From Nitrosopumilaceae archaeon (lineage in GTDB: Archaea > Thermoproteota > Nitrososphaeria > Nitrososphaerales > Nitrosopumilaceae): a DNA stretch of 12,008 nucleotides. A program made the position numbers and the translations under genes. Shown here one piece after another: positions 3,222-7,580 of the stretch. The stretch is from the NCBI GenBank assembly GCA_013867245.1, contig JACENB010000061.1:1-12008 (forward strand), in the 5' to 3' direction. The notes below the pieces were generated by a model. That model worked only from the letters and a program-made list of their open reading frames with translations. It was not told the origin of the DNA and made no database searches. Each line of letters opens with the position of its first letter. Positions within the stretch are counted from its first letter, which is position 1.

Positions 3222-3415
3222 AGAAAGATCACGTCGAAATTCCAAAACCATCAAGTAAATTTCAAAAAGTTAACTGTAATGAATGTGGAGAACTACAAAT
3301 TGTTTATTCACATGCATCAACGCAAGTTGCCTGTAATTCATGCGGAAATGCAATTGCAGAAGCAACAGGTTCTAAGGCAAAAATTAATGGCAAAGTCTCA
3401 GGCAGCGCTGAGTAA
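3218..3415 (+). CDS. rps27e: 30S ribosomal protein S27e
   Basis: Small zinc-ribbon protein of the 30S subunit (eS27). The 65 residues include C20-x2-C23 and C39-x2-C42, preceded by the usual FQKVNCNECG region. It overlaps rpl44e by 4 nt. The last 18 nt overlap the 3' end of the convergent cobY gene, leaving no separate terminator. In many archaea this pair continues into the gene for translation initiation factor 2 alpha; here the cobalamin operon comes in from the other strand instead. Confidence 0.96.
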   Translation: MKKDHVEIPKPSSKFQKVNCNECGELQIVYSHASTQVACNSCGNAIAEATGSKAKINGKVSGSAE

Positions 3416-3982
3416 ATCATAATCCTGTTTAGTATTTAGATTAAGTGCAATTCTTTTGTCATCAAGAATGATGTAATTTTCTTCTAAATTCTCAAGTGAA
3501 TCAATTTTTTGAGAATCAATTAATGAAATTCCTGTGAAATTACATTTTTGATTATCATGAATTATAGAATATTCAGATTGGGTTCCAATAGAAGATAGTA
3601 GTTTGTCAGTGACAAGAATACTTGTCCAAACTTTTTGTGGATCATGTTGTTTTACAATGGTTTGAATAATTTCATCATCTAACAATGGTAGATCACCAGA
3701 AGTGACTAGTACCAGATCATTGAATTTTTGTAGTACTGAGTTTAGATCTTCAACATAACCTAATCCAGAAGTGTCAAAAGTTTCGACATTATTTTCTTCT
3801 AATAGTTTTTTTGTTTTAGGAGAATTAGGACTAGTTACTGCAATAATTTTAGAAAAACAATTGGAATTTTTTAATGAATCAATCACATGTAAGATAATTG
3901 GTTTTTTGTATTGTAAGAGTAGTTTCTCATCATCCAAATTCATGCGTGTTCCTTTACCACCAGCCATTACAATTCCAATCAT
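3398..3982 (-). CDS. cobY: GTP:adenosylcobinamide-phosphate guanylyltransferase CobY
   Basis: Transfers GMP from GTP to adenosylcobinamide phosphate, giving adenosylcobinamide-GDP, the substrate of CobS. CobY is the archaeal non-orthologous replacement for the guanylyltransferase part of CobU. The 194 residues have a nucleotidyltransferase Rossmann fold with MAGGKGTRM (residues 6-14), the GLGYVEDLN segment (73-81) and TSGDLPLL (94-101), whose Asp probably binds the metal. Its start overlaps the cobS stop by 4 nt (ATGA). It is the last gene of the operon and runs 18 nt into the 3' end of rps27e. A MobA-like transferase would be the alternative, but the operon context makes CobY much more likely. 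Confidence 0.9.
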   Translation of the reverse strand: MIGIVMAGGKGTRMNLDDEKLLLQYKKPIILHVIDSLKNSNCFSKIIAVTSPNSPKTKKLLEENNVETFDTSGLGYVEDLNSVLQKFNDLVLVTSGDLPLLDDEIIQTIVKQHDPQKVWTSILVTDKLLSSIGTQSEYSIIHDNQKCNFTGISLIDSQKIDSLENLEENYIILDDKRIALNLNTKQDYDLLSAA

Positions 3983-4704
3983 ATCGATACAAACACCATC
4001 AATGAAGCTAGTCTGGTGAGTTCGTTTGTAGCACCAATTACATCTCCAGTAATTCCACCAAAACTACGAGTAGAAATGCCAAGTAGGAATAATGTCAAGG
4101 CAACGGTAACTCCTAGCATTATCAGTCCAGTACTCTCACCAATCAGGGCTACAGGGATAAGCATGATGATAAAGGCTGCTGCCAGTTTTCTCTTATCTTT
4201 CATTAGATGTACAAAAGGAGAGTTTGAGCCTGATGCAGCAGAATTGCCTAAACTAGCCATGAGTACCATTGAGAATTTGGCTAAAATTTCGCTAATCAGA
4301 ATTGCCTTAAACAAATCAAATCCACTCGTAAGGGATATGGTGATTATCAGACCAACCAGATACAAAACGAGTCCAACAATTCCAGCTGAACCAGTAGAAA
4401 GATCTTTCATTGCTTGAATTTTCTTTTCTTTTGTTCCTTTCACCATAAGTCCATCTGCAAAATCAGCTAAACCATCAGCATGGTGAATGCCAGTAACTAT
4501 TGCAATAGATGCAACAACTAACAAACTAACTAGCAGTGGATCTAAAAAGAAAGATAGACCAAATCCAAATGAGCCAACTAAAAGTCCAATTGCAATTCCA
4601 ACAATAGGAAAAACATACATGTATTTTGCAATATTTTCCAAAGTTGCATTTGATGATGGGAATATTGTCAAGAAAGAAAAGACAGAACCAATTTCCTTAA
4701 GCAT
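3979..4704 (-). CDS. cobS: Adenosylcobinamide-GDP ribazoletransferase (cobalamin 5'-phosphate synthase) CobS
   Basis: Membrane enzyme that joins adenosylcobinamide-GDP with alpha-ribazole (or its phosphate, or another lower-ligand nucleoside) to complete cobalamin. The signature TGIHHADGLADFADG spans about residues 71-85 counted from the chosen start, with Asp residues that bind metal. Several hydrophobic segments surround it, as expected for an integral membrane protein. The start chosen is the ATG at 4704 (MLKEIGSVFSFLTIFP), which matches the usual N-terminus; an ATG at 4719 would add five residues and increase the overlap with cbiB from 8 to 23 nt. It overlaps cobY by 4 nt at its 3' end. 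Length, about 241 aa, is normal. Confidence 0.95.
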   Translation of the reverse strand: MLKEIGSVFSFLTIFPSSNATLENIAKYMYVFPIVGIAIGLLVGSFGFGLSFFLDPLLVSLLVVASIAIVTGIHHADGLADFADGLMVKGTKEKKIQAMKDLSTGSAGIVGLVLYLVGLIITISLTSGFDLFKAILISEILAKFSMVLMASLGNSAASGSNSPFVHLMKDKRKLAAAFIIMLIPVALIGESTGLIMLGVTVALTLFLLGISTRSFGGITGDVIGATNELTRLASLMVFVSI

Positions 4705-5668
4705 GAATCCACCATCCAATCAATGTTAAAACAGTAACAATTGGAACAATTACAATTCCAAAGAATAGAACTGAAGTTAATTTCATAATAGATATTGCAG
4801 AATGTACATGTTCTTTTGTAAGAGTTAGTTCACCACTGCCTAATTTGTAATGATTTACTTTTTCAAATTTTGTGCCAAGTGCTCCTGCTAATGCAGCCAT
4901 AGGATATCCTGCATTGGGGCTCTCAGTTTTTTTGCCATCACGAATCATAATCTTGTAAGATTCTTTCCAGTTATTTTGTAAAATAGCAGCTGAAATGATC
5001 ATTACAAGTCCAGTAAGCCTTGATGGAATGTAATTTAGTATAGTATCACAAGTAGCTGCAAACCATCCCAAATTTTTGAAAAGATCAGTTTTGTATCCTA
5101 TCATAGAGTCAGCAGTATTGATAATCCTGTACACAAATGCTCCAGGCAATCCAAAAATCGCATAGTAAAACAGAGGTCCAGTTATGCCATCTACAGTATT
5201 TTCACTAACGCTTTCAAGCACGCCTGAAATTACGTGATTTTTGTCTAAATCAGAGGTATTTCGCTTTACAATCATAGATAGATTCTCTCGAGCAGAATCC
5301 AAATTATTCATCTCAAGTGATTCTACAACTGCCATAGCATAGCGTTCCAGTCCCTTGATTGCAATAGTAGTCTTTAGTAGTAAACCACCTATTACAACTG
5401 AAACTACTAATGCTATCCAATCAGTTGAAAGTAATGAAATTCCAAAGTCCAAAGTTAAAAGTAATGAAACAACTATTCCAACAGGAATCGTAACTACAAA
5501 TATTCCACCTAGTTTTTCGAGTTTTTGATTTTGATTTTGACCAAGCGGAGTTAATTTAGCAATTAATCCACCAATCCAAGCAGTTGGATGATATCTATTC
5601 TTGGGATCACCAAAAACTAAATCTAGTATTAATGCAAATCCAACAATTACCAAAGATTCTATAATCAT
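4697..5668 (-). CDS. cbiB: Adenosylcobinamide-phosphate synthase CbiB
   Basis: Integral membrane protein that attaches aminopropanol phosphate to adenosylcobyric acid. The 323 residues start with the usual first helix and the GDP..HPTAWIG signature (residues 20-33). Further on are the RNTSDLDKNHVISGVLESVS region, SENTVDGITGPLFYY, a segment with INTADSMIGYK, and ESPNAGYPMAALAGALG near the C-terminus. All are typical of the family, and multiple membrane helices are evident. The start overlaps the cobQ stop by 4 nt (ATGA). Its substrate partner, (R)-1-aminopropan-2-ol phosphate, would come from the PLP decarboxylase two genes upstream. Confidence 0.95.
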   Translation of the reverse strand: MIIESLVIVGFALILDLVFGDPKNRYHPTAWIGGLIAKLTPLGQNQNQKLEKLGGIFVVTIPVGIVVSLLLTLDFGISLLSTDWIALVVSVVIGGLLLKTTIAIKGLERYAMAVVESLEMNNLDSARENLSMIVKRNTSDLDKNHVISGVLESVSENTVDGITGPLFYYAIFGLPGAFVYRIINTADSMIGYKTDLFKNLGWFAATCDTILNYIPSRLTGLVMIISAAILQNNWKESYKIMIRDGKKTESPNAGYPMAALAGALGTKFEKVNHYKLGSGELTLTKEHVHSAISIMKLTSVLFFGIVIVPIVTVLTLIGWWIHA

Positions 5669-6504
5669 TTAATCATCCTCTCAATACTTTTAATATCTAA
5701 ATTATTTTGTACAATTTTTGCTAGTTTATCCAATTCTTTATCAATTTTTGAGATATTCTTTTTGGTCCAAGCTATTTGTTTTGCTTTAACATTAAGTGAA
5801 TCCTCTTCTGGAAGATTCATTTCTATCATAGGAATAGTTCCAAGAACAGGAATTTTAGTAAGTTGTTTTATTTTTCTAAATCCAGGCTTTAGCACATCAA
5901 TATCTCCTCTGAATTTATTTAATACAAAGCCTTTGACTAGCTTTTTGTATTTATTTTCAATTAATTCCATAGTTCCAACCAAACTTGCAAATGAACCACC
6001 TTTGTCAATATCAGAAACTAAAAGTACTGATGCATTTGCCTTTTGAGCAATTTGCATATTTGCAATATCATATTTTTGTAAATTAATTTCAGCCGGGGAA
6101 CCTGCACCTTCTAAAATCACTAGATCATAATTTTTTTTGAGTTTTGATAATGAAGTGGTAGCGGCCTTGAGTCCTTTAGACTTGACAAATTTTGCATAGT
6201 AATCTTTAGCGTGCATTTTCTTGTAATATTTCCCATTTAGGTAAACTGCACTATAGTAATTTCCCAAAGGCTTGAGCATTATTGGATTCAAATCAGGCTC
6301 GATTGGACATTTGGCAGCAATAGCCTGGATTGCCTGAGCACGAGAAATCTCAAAATCAGGCGTAGCATAGCCAAAATTTGACATGTTTTGAGATTTGAAT
6401 GGAGCAACAAGGTATCCCTTTTGTTCAAAGATTCTACATAACGCTGCAACCAATGTTGATTTTCCAGCACCAGAAGATGTGCCCTGAATCATTATAGGTT
6501 TCAT
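5665..6504 (-). CDS. cobQ: Cobyric acid synthase CobQ/CbiP, synthetase half only (no glutamine amidotransferase domain)
   Basis: CobQ amidates four side chains of adenosylcobyrinic acid a,c-diamide using ATP and ammonia released from glutamine. The ATP-dependent synthetase domain is intact: P-loop GTSSGAGKS (residues 8-16), FKSQNMSNFG (36-45), EISRAQAIQA (52-61), NPIMLKPLG (73-81), LEGAGSPAEINL (131-142), SDIDKGGSFASL (164-175), GFVLNKFRGD (192-201) and LPEEDSL (231-237). The protein then ends at 279 aa, against roughly 480-500 for normal CobQ. The class I amidotransferase domain with its Cys-His-Glu triad is missing. The last 27 residues (IDKELDKLAKIVQNNLDIKS) resemble the extreme C-terminus of full-length CobQ, which suggests an internal deletion rather than simple truncation. 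Both ends overlap neighbours by 4 nt, so no lost domain lies downstream. Confidence 0.9.
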   Translation of the reverse strand: MKPIMIQGTSSGAGKSTLVAALCRIFEQKGYLVAPFKSQNMSNFGYATPDFEISRAQAIQAIAAKCPIEPDLNPIMLKPLGNYYSAVYLNGKYYKKMHAKDYYAKFVKSKGLKAATTSLSKLKKNYDLVILEGAGSPAEINLQKYDIANMQIAQKANASVLLVSDIDKGGSFASLVGTMELIENKYKKLVKGFVLNKFRGDIDVLKPGFRKIKQLTKIPVLGTIPMIEMNLPEEDSLNVKAKQIAWTKKNISKIDKELDKLAKIVQNNLDIKSIERMIK

Positions 6505-7580
6505 GCAATAGCCTCCATCGCATTGACAAGTTTTAGATTGTCTTTATGAGATTTCACTGCAATTCGAATATAGTGATTGTCTAGTCCACGAAAATTTTTA
6601 CAATCACGAATCAATATTTTATGTTTCAATAATTTTTTTTGAATTTTTGTAGAGTCATCTTTAGTCTTAATCAAAATAAAATTTGTTGATGATTCATGGC
6701 ATTCAAATCCAGGAATAATTCCAATTTTCTTTTTTAGAAAATTTGATTCTTTCTTAATAATTGATTTTGATTTTGTTAGATGAGATTTATTTTTTAATGC
6801 TATAATTCCTGCTTGTTGTGCTAATGCATTAACACTCCAAGGAATTTTTATTTTTTTCAGAATTTCAATAATTGTTTTTGAGCCTATACCATACCCAATG
6901 CGAATTCCTGCTAATCCAAATGATTTTGTTAATGATCTTAAAACAAATAGATTATCATATTTTTTTACCAAATTGATTATGGATTGATTTGATTCTGGTA
7001 CCAACTCAATAAAACATTCATCAACAAATACAATACAGGATTTCTTTTTTGCAGCAGATATTATTTTTGTTAACTGTTTTTTTGAGAGAATAGTTCCAGT
7101 AGGATTATTTGGATTGCAAACAAAAATACAACCATTTTTAGGAATACGAGAAATAAACGAGTCAATATCTTCAGAAAGATTCATTGTTTTAAAAAAAGTG
7201 AATTTACAATCAACTAGTTTGGATGCAGATTCGTATTCACTAAAAGTTGGTGTTGGAATTAAAACAGTTTTTTTAGATAAAAATGCAGTACAAAAATTAT
7301 AGAGAATCTCAATTGCACCATTACCTACAACAATGTTAGAATCAGATAATCCAGTGTATTTTTTGAGGCTAGAGATTAAATTCAGTGAATCAGTATCAGG
7401 ATAGTGTTCCATTTCACCTACTCTTTTCTTTATAGCAGATTTTACAGATGAGGGCATTCCAGCAGGACTAGTGTTTGAGCTATAGTCTAAGACGTCAATC
7501 TTCTGGTTTCCTCCAGAAAATCGACCTCCATGAGTGACAGGGTGATGTTTAGTTATGCTTGTTTTTGTCCTTATTTTCAC
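6501..7580 (-). CDS. cobD: PLP-dependent threonine-phosphate decarboxylase-like protein (CobD/CobC, HisC fold)
   Basis: Fold-type I PLP enzyme. In this context it probably decarboxylates L-threonine O-3-phosphate to (R)-1-aminopropan-2-ol phosphate for CbiB. The 359 residues include HGGRF near the N-terminus (residues 17-21) and DYSSNTSPAG (32-41), both typical of CobD/CobC rather than HisC. Also present are NPNNPTG (156-162), the PLP-ring Asp187 in VDECF, and the Schiff-base lysine K219 in SLTKSFGLAGIRIGYG. The start is GTG at 7580, 24.5 bp from a TATA-like box. It is the first gene of the operon and overlaps cobQ by 4 nt. Histidinol-phosphate aminotransferase is the main alternative; HGG and operon position argue against it. 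Confidence 0.85.
   Translation of the reverse strand: MKIRTKTSITKHHPVTHGGRFSGGNQKIDVLDYSSNTSPAGMPSSVKSAIKKRVGEMEHYPDTDSLNLISSLKKYTGLSDSNIVVGNGAIEILYNFCTAFLSKKTVLIPTPTFSEYESASKLVDCKFTFFKTMNLSEDIDSFISRIPKNGCIFVCNPNNPTGTILSKKQLTKIISAAKKKSCIVFVDECFIELVPESNQSIINLVKKYDNLFVLRSLTKSFGLAGIRIGYGIGSKTIIEILKKIKIPWSVNALAQQAGIIALKNKSHLTKSKSIIKKESNFLKKKIGIIPGFECHESSTNFILIKTKDDSTKIQKKLLKHKILIRDCKNFRGLDNHYIRIAVKSHKDNLKLVNAMEAIA

Follow-up and report, generated by a model that had tools for sequence, protein, structure and literature searches.

The window, a stretch of 12,008 nucleotides from a Nitrosopumilaceae archaeon (contig JACENB010000061.1), carries a cobQ gene whose product lacks the glutamine amidotransferase domain of cobyric acid synthase. 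The short protein is a genuine variant of this known enzyme and recurs across a whole clade, and the glutaminase of CobQ is almost certainly absent or inactive in the ammonia-oxidizing archaea (AOA). Judging by its sequence, the gene probably encodes a working cobyric acid synthase that has been cut down to the synthetase part and uses cytoplasmic ammonia, a reading to which we give a probability of roughly 0.55. The gene and the segments of its product are located as follows.

5665..6504, minus strand: cobQ/cbiP, cobyric acid synthase without glutamine amidotransferase domain (open reading frame of 279 amino acids)
5791..6504, minus strand: ATP-dependent synthetase domain with DTBS/CbiA fold, residues 1-238, complete (NF001989, alignment and model)
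6460..6483, minus strand: P-loop GTSSGAGK, residues 8-15 (translation and alignment)
6079..6111, minus strand: synthetase motif EGAGSPAEINL, residues 132-142 (conservation in AOA sequences)
5764..5793, minus strand: junction, residues about 238-247, where approximately 230 GATase_3 residues of full-length CobQ are missing (alignments)
5671..5763, minus strand: pair of C-terminal helices, residues 248-278, with homology to the two helices that end full-length CobQ (alignment and predicted structure)

According to the accessible text of PMC8123684, proteins of the CobQ family contain a glutamine amidotransferase domain. Pfam matched CbiA and AAA_26 in the CobQ of the window and gave no match to GATase_3 (PF07685), the domain that would contain the catalytic Cys and His expected of the CobQ/CbiP family. 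The synthetase domain nevertheless reached the curated family score, with 338.8 bits for the cobyric acid synthase profile NF001989 (cut-off 273) over positions 2-244 of 480. The score for TIGR00313 was 308.3 bits, narrowly under the cut-off of 309.9, over positions 1-249 of 477. Thus, the protein resembles CobQ/CbiP in its synthetase motifs, C-terminal helices, gene neighborhood and NF001989 score, but differs from it in the absent GATase_3 domain and in the partial coverage of the profile. The NF001989 match and the motif conservation agree with a preliminary description of this DNA, which had found all synthetase motifs present and the amidotransferase domain missing.

In the alignment with full-length CobQ, a gap of approximately 230 residues (the preliminary description had estimated roughly 200) begins after the EEDSL motif, and the tail resumes on the last two helices. 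The predicted model of the short protein has a mean predicted local distance difference test (pLDDT) score of 91.2 and a predicted template modeling (pTM) score of 0.91, with an average pLDDT of 63 for residues 231-240. Helices are predicted in its tail at residues 248-268 and 271-278. In the predicted structure of an intact relative of 510 amino acids, helices at residues 478-496 and 499-506 follow the amidotransferase domain. The correspondence between the two pairs suggests that the amidotransferase lies between the synthetase core and the synthetase's own C-terminal helices, and that the short CobQ of AOA arose by clean excision, not by truncation. The tail had earlier been taken for the C-terminus of a normal CobQ, and both the alignment and the predicted helices agree. 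The nearest solved fold to the model is dethiobiotin synthetase (1dbs; E 8.9e-10, 18% identity), an enzyme that catalyzes a different reaction.

The short form is widespread. Among the genomes of 61 relatives, 46 matched the CobQ of the window and 43 contained a CobQ; G002, G028 and G029 showed weak paralogue matches only and were left out. In 36 of the 43, single-contig genomes included, CobQ is an open frame of 269-326 amino acids, and full-length frames are present in the other seven (G039, G055, G042, G043, G049, G050 and G057). A relative is also encoded by 59 named loci, among them Nitrosopumilus, Nitrosotalea and Nitrosocosmicus, many of the records being of the same length. The best named matches are metagenome-assembled genomes (MAGs) of Nitrosopumilus, and the cultured Nitrosopumilus piranensis has a CobQ of 279 amino acids (P0022). 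Locus L097, from a Nitrospinaceae bacterium, encodes a full-length relative of 486 amino acids. Five named loci were not used as evidence: L048, L090, whose frame is broken, and L074, L088 and L089, which are cut by contig ends. L048 (2302-3141) is a Nitrosopumilus-like cobQ on a contig filed as a Phycisphaerales MAG, probably through a binning error, and the break in L090 (5995-6678), from the draft genome of Nitrosotalea sp. TS, is probably a sequencing frameshift.

This recurrence refutes the idea that an assembly error or a frameshift hides a full-length cobQ in the window, and we consider its probability negligible. The neighboring genes overlap cobQ by 4 nucleotides each. Profile matches past the stop codon of cobQ in two AOA genomes (G121 and G123) were examined as a possible amidotransferase remnant; the next gene was found there, with no visible remnant.

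Of the 220 order genomes searched with a cut-off of E 1e-30, 155 matched cobyric acid synthase and 138 matched archaeal AmoA. Both occur in 136 genomes, and AmoA without CobQ in two (G234 and G240). Families f1, f2, f3 and f8 are referred to here as AmoA-positive and the others of the order as AmoA-negative. Five genomes with CobQ but without an AmoA match belong to an AmoA-positive family, in each case f8 (G140, G201, G207, G217 and G230), and 14 genomes with CobQ belong to AmoA-negative families. Among the matches listed, which lie above low-scoring rows such as G235 and G238, 17 extend into the GATase part, namely the 14 from AmoA-negative families and those of the AmoA-positive genomes G039, G055 and G084. 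None of the remaining ones extends beyond profile position 308, and the short form is that of the CobQs listed for families f1, f8 and f2/g2. The preliminary description had suggested looking for the same architecture in thaumarchaeal genomes; it extends over the whole clade, more widely than foreseen, and is accompanied by two AOA lineages with a dead domain. No working full-length CobQ stands at this position in the AOA relatives listed.

A bacterial search with profile A4, built from N-terminal halves of CobQ, gave best matches (120 of 8000) that mix short contigs with records labeled partial, so that real short forms are not separable from fragments. CobQ records of 244-275 amino acids, labeled partial, come from Candidatus Brocadia and Candidatus Wujingus (P0266 and P0270). 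Other families of the phylum contain a further, divergent group of CobQ-like proteins without GATase, of 313-319 amino acids (G353 and G398; L240 453-1394, L241 1608-2549, L242 366-1325). It has an altered P-loop, lacks the QNM and AEIN motifs and has a similar C-terminal end, and the genes beside it, as far as read, are not obvious cobalamin genes. Being divergent and below the cut-off, G353 and G398 were left out of the CobQ counts.

Several observations suggest that the short protein is functional. The ratio of nonsynonymous to synonymous substitution rates (dN/dS) is 0.05-0.095 between cobQ of the window and 10 relatives, which indicates purifying rather than relaxed selection and, like the recurrence of the short form, argues against an assembly error. 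All 43 CobQ matches are free of internal stops. The active-site motif residues of the synthetase are invariant across 21 AOA sequences, including E132, G133, A134, G135, S136, P137, E139 and N141. The gene also lies in a late-cobalamin context, with the following neighbors.

6501..7580, minus strand: cobD-type threonine-phosphate decarboxylase/aminotransferase (TIGR01140, 289.7 bits, just below the cut-off of 290.55)
4697..5668, minus strand: cbiB, adenosylcobinamide-phosphate synthase (family profile matches)
3979..4719, minus strand: cobS, cobalamin-5-phosphate synthase (family profile matches)
3398..3982, minus strand: cobY-like nucleotidyltransferase/guanylyltransferase (TIGR00454 and NF045495, both below cut-off)

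The overlaps of 4 nucleotides that cobQ shares with cbiB and with the cobD-type gene had been described before and are confirmed. The cobD-type gene, cobQ, cbiB and cobS, with cobY near, are kept together in the loci of f1, f2, f3, f8 and G084, from Nitrosopumilus to Nitrosocaldus-type genomes; in G039 cobY was not seen, as the contig ends first. The preliminary description also presupposed a single CobQ. The nearest genome compared (G001, which has 25% of 31-letter words in common with the window) has one CobQ by NF001989, its other match to the CobQ of the window being weak (31% identity, E 4.5e-8); the window's own genome could still hold a second.

Nitrosopumilus maritimus, whose own cobQ lies outside the sequences compared, is reported to release cobalamin (PMC8281238, accessible text), and the amidations should therefore occur. 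If so, the four amidations of the corrin would proceed without a glutaminase in CobQ itself. That the short protein has another function, or that cobyric acid is made by another route or obtained by salvage, is very improbable. Its chemistry could have shifted, since at nine positions the residue conserved in at least 90% of 89 intact CobQs is retained by fewer than 30% of 32 AOA short forms. The conserved gene neighborhood, the invariant active-site motifs and the cobalamin release of N. maritimus nevertheless speak against a change of function, as does the name cobyric acid synthase that database records give to the short protein. One of the nine positions, Q88 (intact numbering), is invariant in the 89 intact CobQs and variable in the 32 short forms and in 13 AOA forms with a dead domain (11 of the 28 f3-like proteins described below, P0167 and P0170), a pattern that would be expected if Q88 served the glutaminase.

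The closest solved relative by sequence of the CobQ amidotransferase domain is GatD of Staphylococcus aureus (6gs2 and 5n9m), in which C94 and H189 form the catalytic dyad and the variants C94A and H189A are totally inactive (PMC5871853, accessible text). In CobQ, they correspond to the Cys in GICGG and the His in GTYxHG. Both are kept in all 14 full-length CobQs that AmoA-negative members of the order encode; elsewhere in the phylum, in families whose AmoA status was not scored, 26 of 26 CobQs have them as well. Of the three AmoA-positive CobQs with the domain, all have lost the His and one the Cys. In G039 and G055 (f3), the His is replaced by Tyr and GICGG reads GICEG, and in G084 the Cys is replaced by Asp and the His segment is absent. 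Because at least one residue matching the essential dyad of GatD is lost, the domain is predicted to be dead in all three AmoA-positive genomes that retain it.

A database search with the f3 CobQ, of which the best 120 of 7997 relatives were analyzed, included 28 f3-like proteins (P0121-P0148). The His is replaced by Tyr in all 28, the Cys is kept in 25, and the motif is mostly GICEG. By sequence, the domain is also dead in P0167 (448 amino acids, named Candidatus Nitrosocaldaceae archaeon) and P0170 (442 amino acids). Both residues are present in 89 of the other 91 rows, the exceptions being P0170 and a short protein of Nitrosocaldus (P0234). Where the synthetase has diverged to the same extent, the dead f3-like domain changes somewhat faster than the intact one, with identities of 0.49 against 0.52 in one bin and 0.66 against 0.75 in the closest bin. 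It is still constrained and has fixed residues of its own, and the f3-like clade thus carries a retained pseudo-glutaminase, kept for some role that may be structural. Taken together, the motifs indicate a graded series of domain loss, from intact through dead and eroded to deleted.

The tree of the CobQ synthetase domain grouped f1 with f8 (support 97/95), apart from f2, f3, G084 and the AmoA-negative families, and did not settle the placement of f2, f3 and G084. In another tree, built from five cobalamin proteins of 15 genomes, AmoA-positive and AmoA-negative genomes were fully separate and G084 fell with f2 (82/88). G084 has the family label f2, like the Nitrosocaldus-type genomes. Its G+C content is 31.0 and 32.5% in two regions, similar to the 31.9-33.1% given for Ca. 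Nitrosothermus in the accessible text of PMC7819960. The short forms were not one clade in the five-protein tree. More than one deletion is likely on these sequences, and the simplest reading of them is that glutaminase activity was lost before the radiation of AOA.

How the amides would be formed is suggested by analogy with single-domain NadE, and direct use of free ammonia by the short CobQ is slightly favored. According to this model, the short CobQ would use ATP to activate four carboxylates of adenosylcobyrinate a,c-diamide (b, d, e and g), which would then be amidated with cytoplasmic ammonia in the manner of NadE. The last common ancestor of AOA, or a forerunner of it, had probably already lost the glutaminase activity. 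One family would then have retained the dead domain and another lineage an eroded form of it; elsewhere it would have been excised, probably more than once, with the C-terminal helices staying behind as part of the synthetase fold. Purified bacterial CobQ can also use ammonia in vitro, with a millimolar Km. NadE and CobQ differ in family and chemistry. Single-domain NadE is nonetheless an amide-forming, ATP-dependent synthetase that is fed by ammonia, has no glutaminase domain and has relatives with one, and the archaeal enzyme depends on ammonia (PMC3376133, accessible text). Single-domain frames of this type (256-338 amino acids) are the main NAD synthetase matches in nine of 10 AmoA-positive genomes searched, the exception being G055, which is 84% complete. 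Thus, an essential amide from free ammonia has a precedent in the same cells. The single-domain form of NadE was proposed to be ancestral in the same accessible text, whereas the short CobQ appears to be derived by loss from a two-domain ancestor. In the table of eight amidotransferase families in that paper, the figure for "no glutaminase" is given for NadE only, and cobB and cobQ are absent from its text.

A number of points weigh against the use of free ammonia, the order of loss outlined above and the tie to ammonia oxidation. AOA live at low ammonium, where an enzyme dependent on free ammonia is not an obvious choice. Forcing the short forms together in the five-protein tree was not rejected by the approximately unbiased (AU) test (p = 0.119), and a single deletion therefore remains compatible with the data. 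An orphan amidotransferase resembling the N-terminal part of GuaA (GuaA-N) tracks the loss, being matched in 130 of 141 CobQ-bearing genomes of AmoA-positive families as compared to one of 14 with an intact CobQ. CobB keeps an intact glutaminase, and the other amidotransferases seen keep their glutaminase domain or subunit, judged by length alone, which shows that free ammonia is no general solution in AOA. The tie to ammonia oxidation drawn in the preliminary description holds as a correlation among the genomes listed, but the link to AmoA is that of one clade with one evolutionary origin and is not independent evidence. The use of free ammonium, also proposed there, is still slightly favored.

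A glutaminase acting in trans, either an orphan or that of CobB, is possible but doubtful. The idea had been raised before and has gained weight, as the orphan is near-universal in AmoA-positive families and CobB has kept its glutaminase; it stands unrefuted, although direct use of ammonia is preferred. The inventory of class I amidotransferases (PF00117, 15 genomes), judged by lengths and sequences, comprised TrpG, CarA, GuaA, PyrG, HisH, PdxT, PurQ and two orphans. One is the GuaA-N-like protein of 180-189 amino acids, with best scores to GuaA-N or GMP synthase subunit A, and the other a PRK07053-like protein of about 230-250 amino acids, with its best score (copies of 227-235 amino acids) to PRK07053, all below cut-off. 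That such an orphan replaces the lost domain is unlikely, and less likely for the PRK07053-like than for the GuaA-N-like protein, which was read in the following loci.

L170 7169-7711: GuaA-N-like orphan (180-189 amino acids)
L175 4985-5539: GuaA-N-like orphan
L177 4762-5331: GuaA-N-like orphan
L182 5372-5926: GuaA-N-like orphan

The profile of this orphan (A5) matched 145 of the 220 order genomes at E 1e-22, of which 132 belong to AmoA-positive families and 13 do not. At E 1.6e-33 or better, the same number of genomes from the four AmoA-positive families was found, the 130 with CobQ and two with AmoA only; among the 14 genomes with an intact CobQ, a match at this level was present in G057 only. 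The GuaA of AOA is fused and has its own glutaminase, which leaves the orphan free for another partner, and in four f1 genomes the orphan gene lies approximately 6-8 kb from cobB. However, the genes between the two are, by reading of the sequences, translation genes, and the orphan is outside the cobalamin operon. Its gene comes directly after one for approximately 940 amino acids (UPF0182 in the f1 copy tested) in the loci read from f1, f2 and f3. Furthermore, strong A5 matches (E 1.5e-45 or better) were found in the AmoA-negative genomes G048 and G061 (f12) and G158 (f10), all of which have a fused GuaA and no CobQ match, and the orphan thus has a role that is independent of CobQ. It is not of the GATase_3 type, and 11 of the 141 CobQ-bearing genomes of AmoA-positive families, including the nearest genome G001, have no A5 match, some of them being incomplete. 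In G057, no fused GuaA was shown and the orphan relative (34-42% identity) may be GMP synthase subunit A, which is uninformative either way. This relative is therefore no argument for an orphan older than the loss, and the orphan tracks the AmoA-positive families.

An orphan amidotransferase of the CobQ type, the search for which had been proposed, was not found among the matches listed. The 180-189 amino acid protein, the PRK07053-like protein and a candidate of 451 amino acids are not of CobQ type by profile scores, and the last is CobB. In the 61 genomes, no standalone CobQ-type GATase_3 was present among the PF07685 matches read from the higher-scoring part of the list, save perhaps in the split CobB of G030; the AOA matches among them proved to be CobB itself or PdxT-like or PurQ-like proteins. 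The AOA members of 20 amidotransferase loci, assigned by reading and not by profile scores, are PdxT-like or, once, PurQ-like. No GATase_3 gene adjoins cobQ in the loci read from f1, f2, f3, f8 and G084. Class II amidotransferases were rejected as donors, as all matches listed are in open frames of 419-631 amino acids and none is standalone. A complex in which CobQ borrows the glutaminase of CobB (CbiA), one GATase_3 domain feeding both enzymes, is less likely still than an orphan partner. CobB is a homologue of CobQ with the same kind of glutaminase domain, it acts before CobQ in the pathway, and its Cys and His motifs are kept in 16 of 16 AOA loci read (15 genomes). The cobB gene is, however, far from cobQ, and we know of no precedent for such borrowing. 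Two cobB genes are interrupted.

L117 562-1236 and 1320-2081: cobB of G030 in two neighboring frames, a synthetase of 253 amino acids and an amidotransferase of 224 amino acids, either a split that would favor a shared glutaminase or a sequencing error; the GATase_3 may stand alone
L119 7631-8987: cobB of G023 in two frames of 313 and 143 amino acids with overlapping ends, probably a frameshift

Among homologous two-domain amidases (CobB/CbiA and CfbB), CobB thus keeps the catalytic motifs in AOA, unlike CobQ, and has a full-length frame in all loci read apart from those of G030 and G023. The pair MurT-GatD demonstrates that a CobQ-type amidotransferase domain can be a separate subunit, GatD being the active partner of MurT. 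No comparable arrangement, with a separate GATase_3 subunit near the synthetase, was seen in the loci read, and a separate GATase_3 partner of CobQ was not seen among the matches read, save for the G030 protein. We found no mention of the missing domain of AOA CobQ in the accessible text of PMC4303638, PMC7819960, PMC8123684 and PMC9530722, which came from searches of the open full-text literature, a coverage that excludes most subscription journals.

CobQ is described as glutamine-dependent, yet a whole clade of important B12 producers is without its glutaminase. This raises the questions of which nitrogen source serves the corrin amides of AOA and whether B12 output follows the availability of ammonium. 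We tentatively suggest that AOA, reported to be major producers of B12, amidate the corrin with free ammonia and that the glutaminase became inactive at the base of the group, with stages of its decay still visible, among them an eroded remnant in a lineage of Nitrosocaldaceae. The supply of B12, and with it the B12-dependent step of carbon fixation in AOA, would then depend directly on cellular ammonium, and a structural or sensing function may have been acquired by the conserved dead domain. If there is a partner instead, the orphan amidotransferase, present in almost every AOA genome searched, would gain a first role. Gene surveys that score cobQ as present can overlook such a change of mechanism. 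The intact, dead, eroded and excised domains let a natural loss be followed through an unusually full set of stages, and the short protein is a naturally minimal CobQ, useful for structure and engineering.

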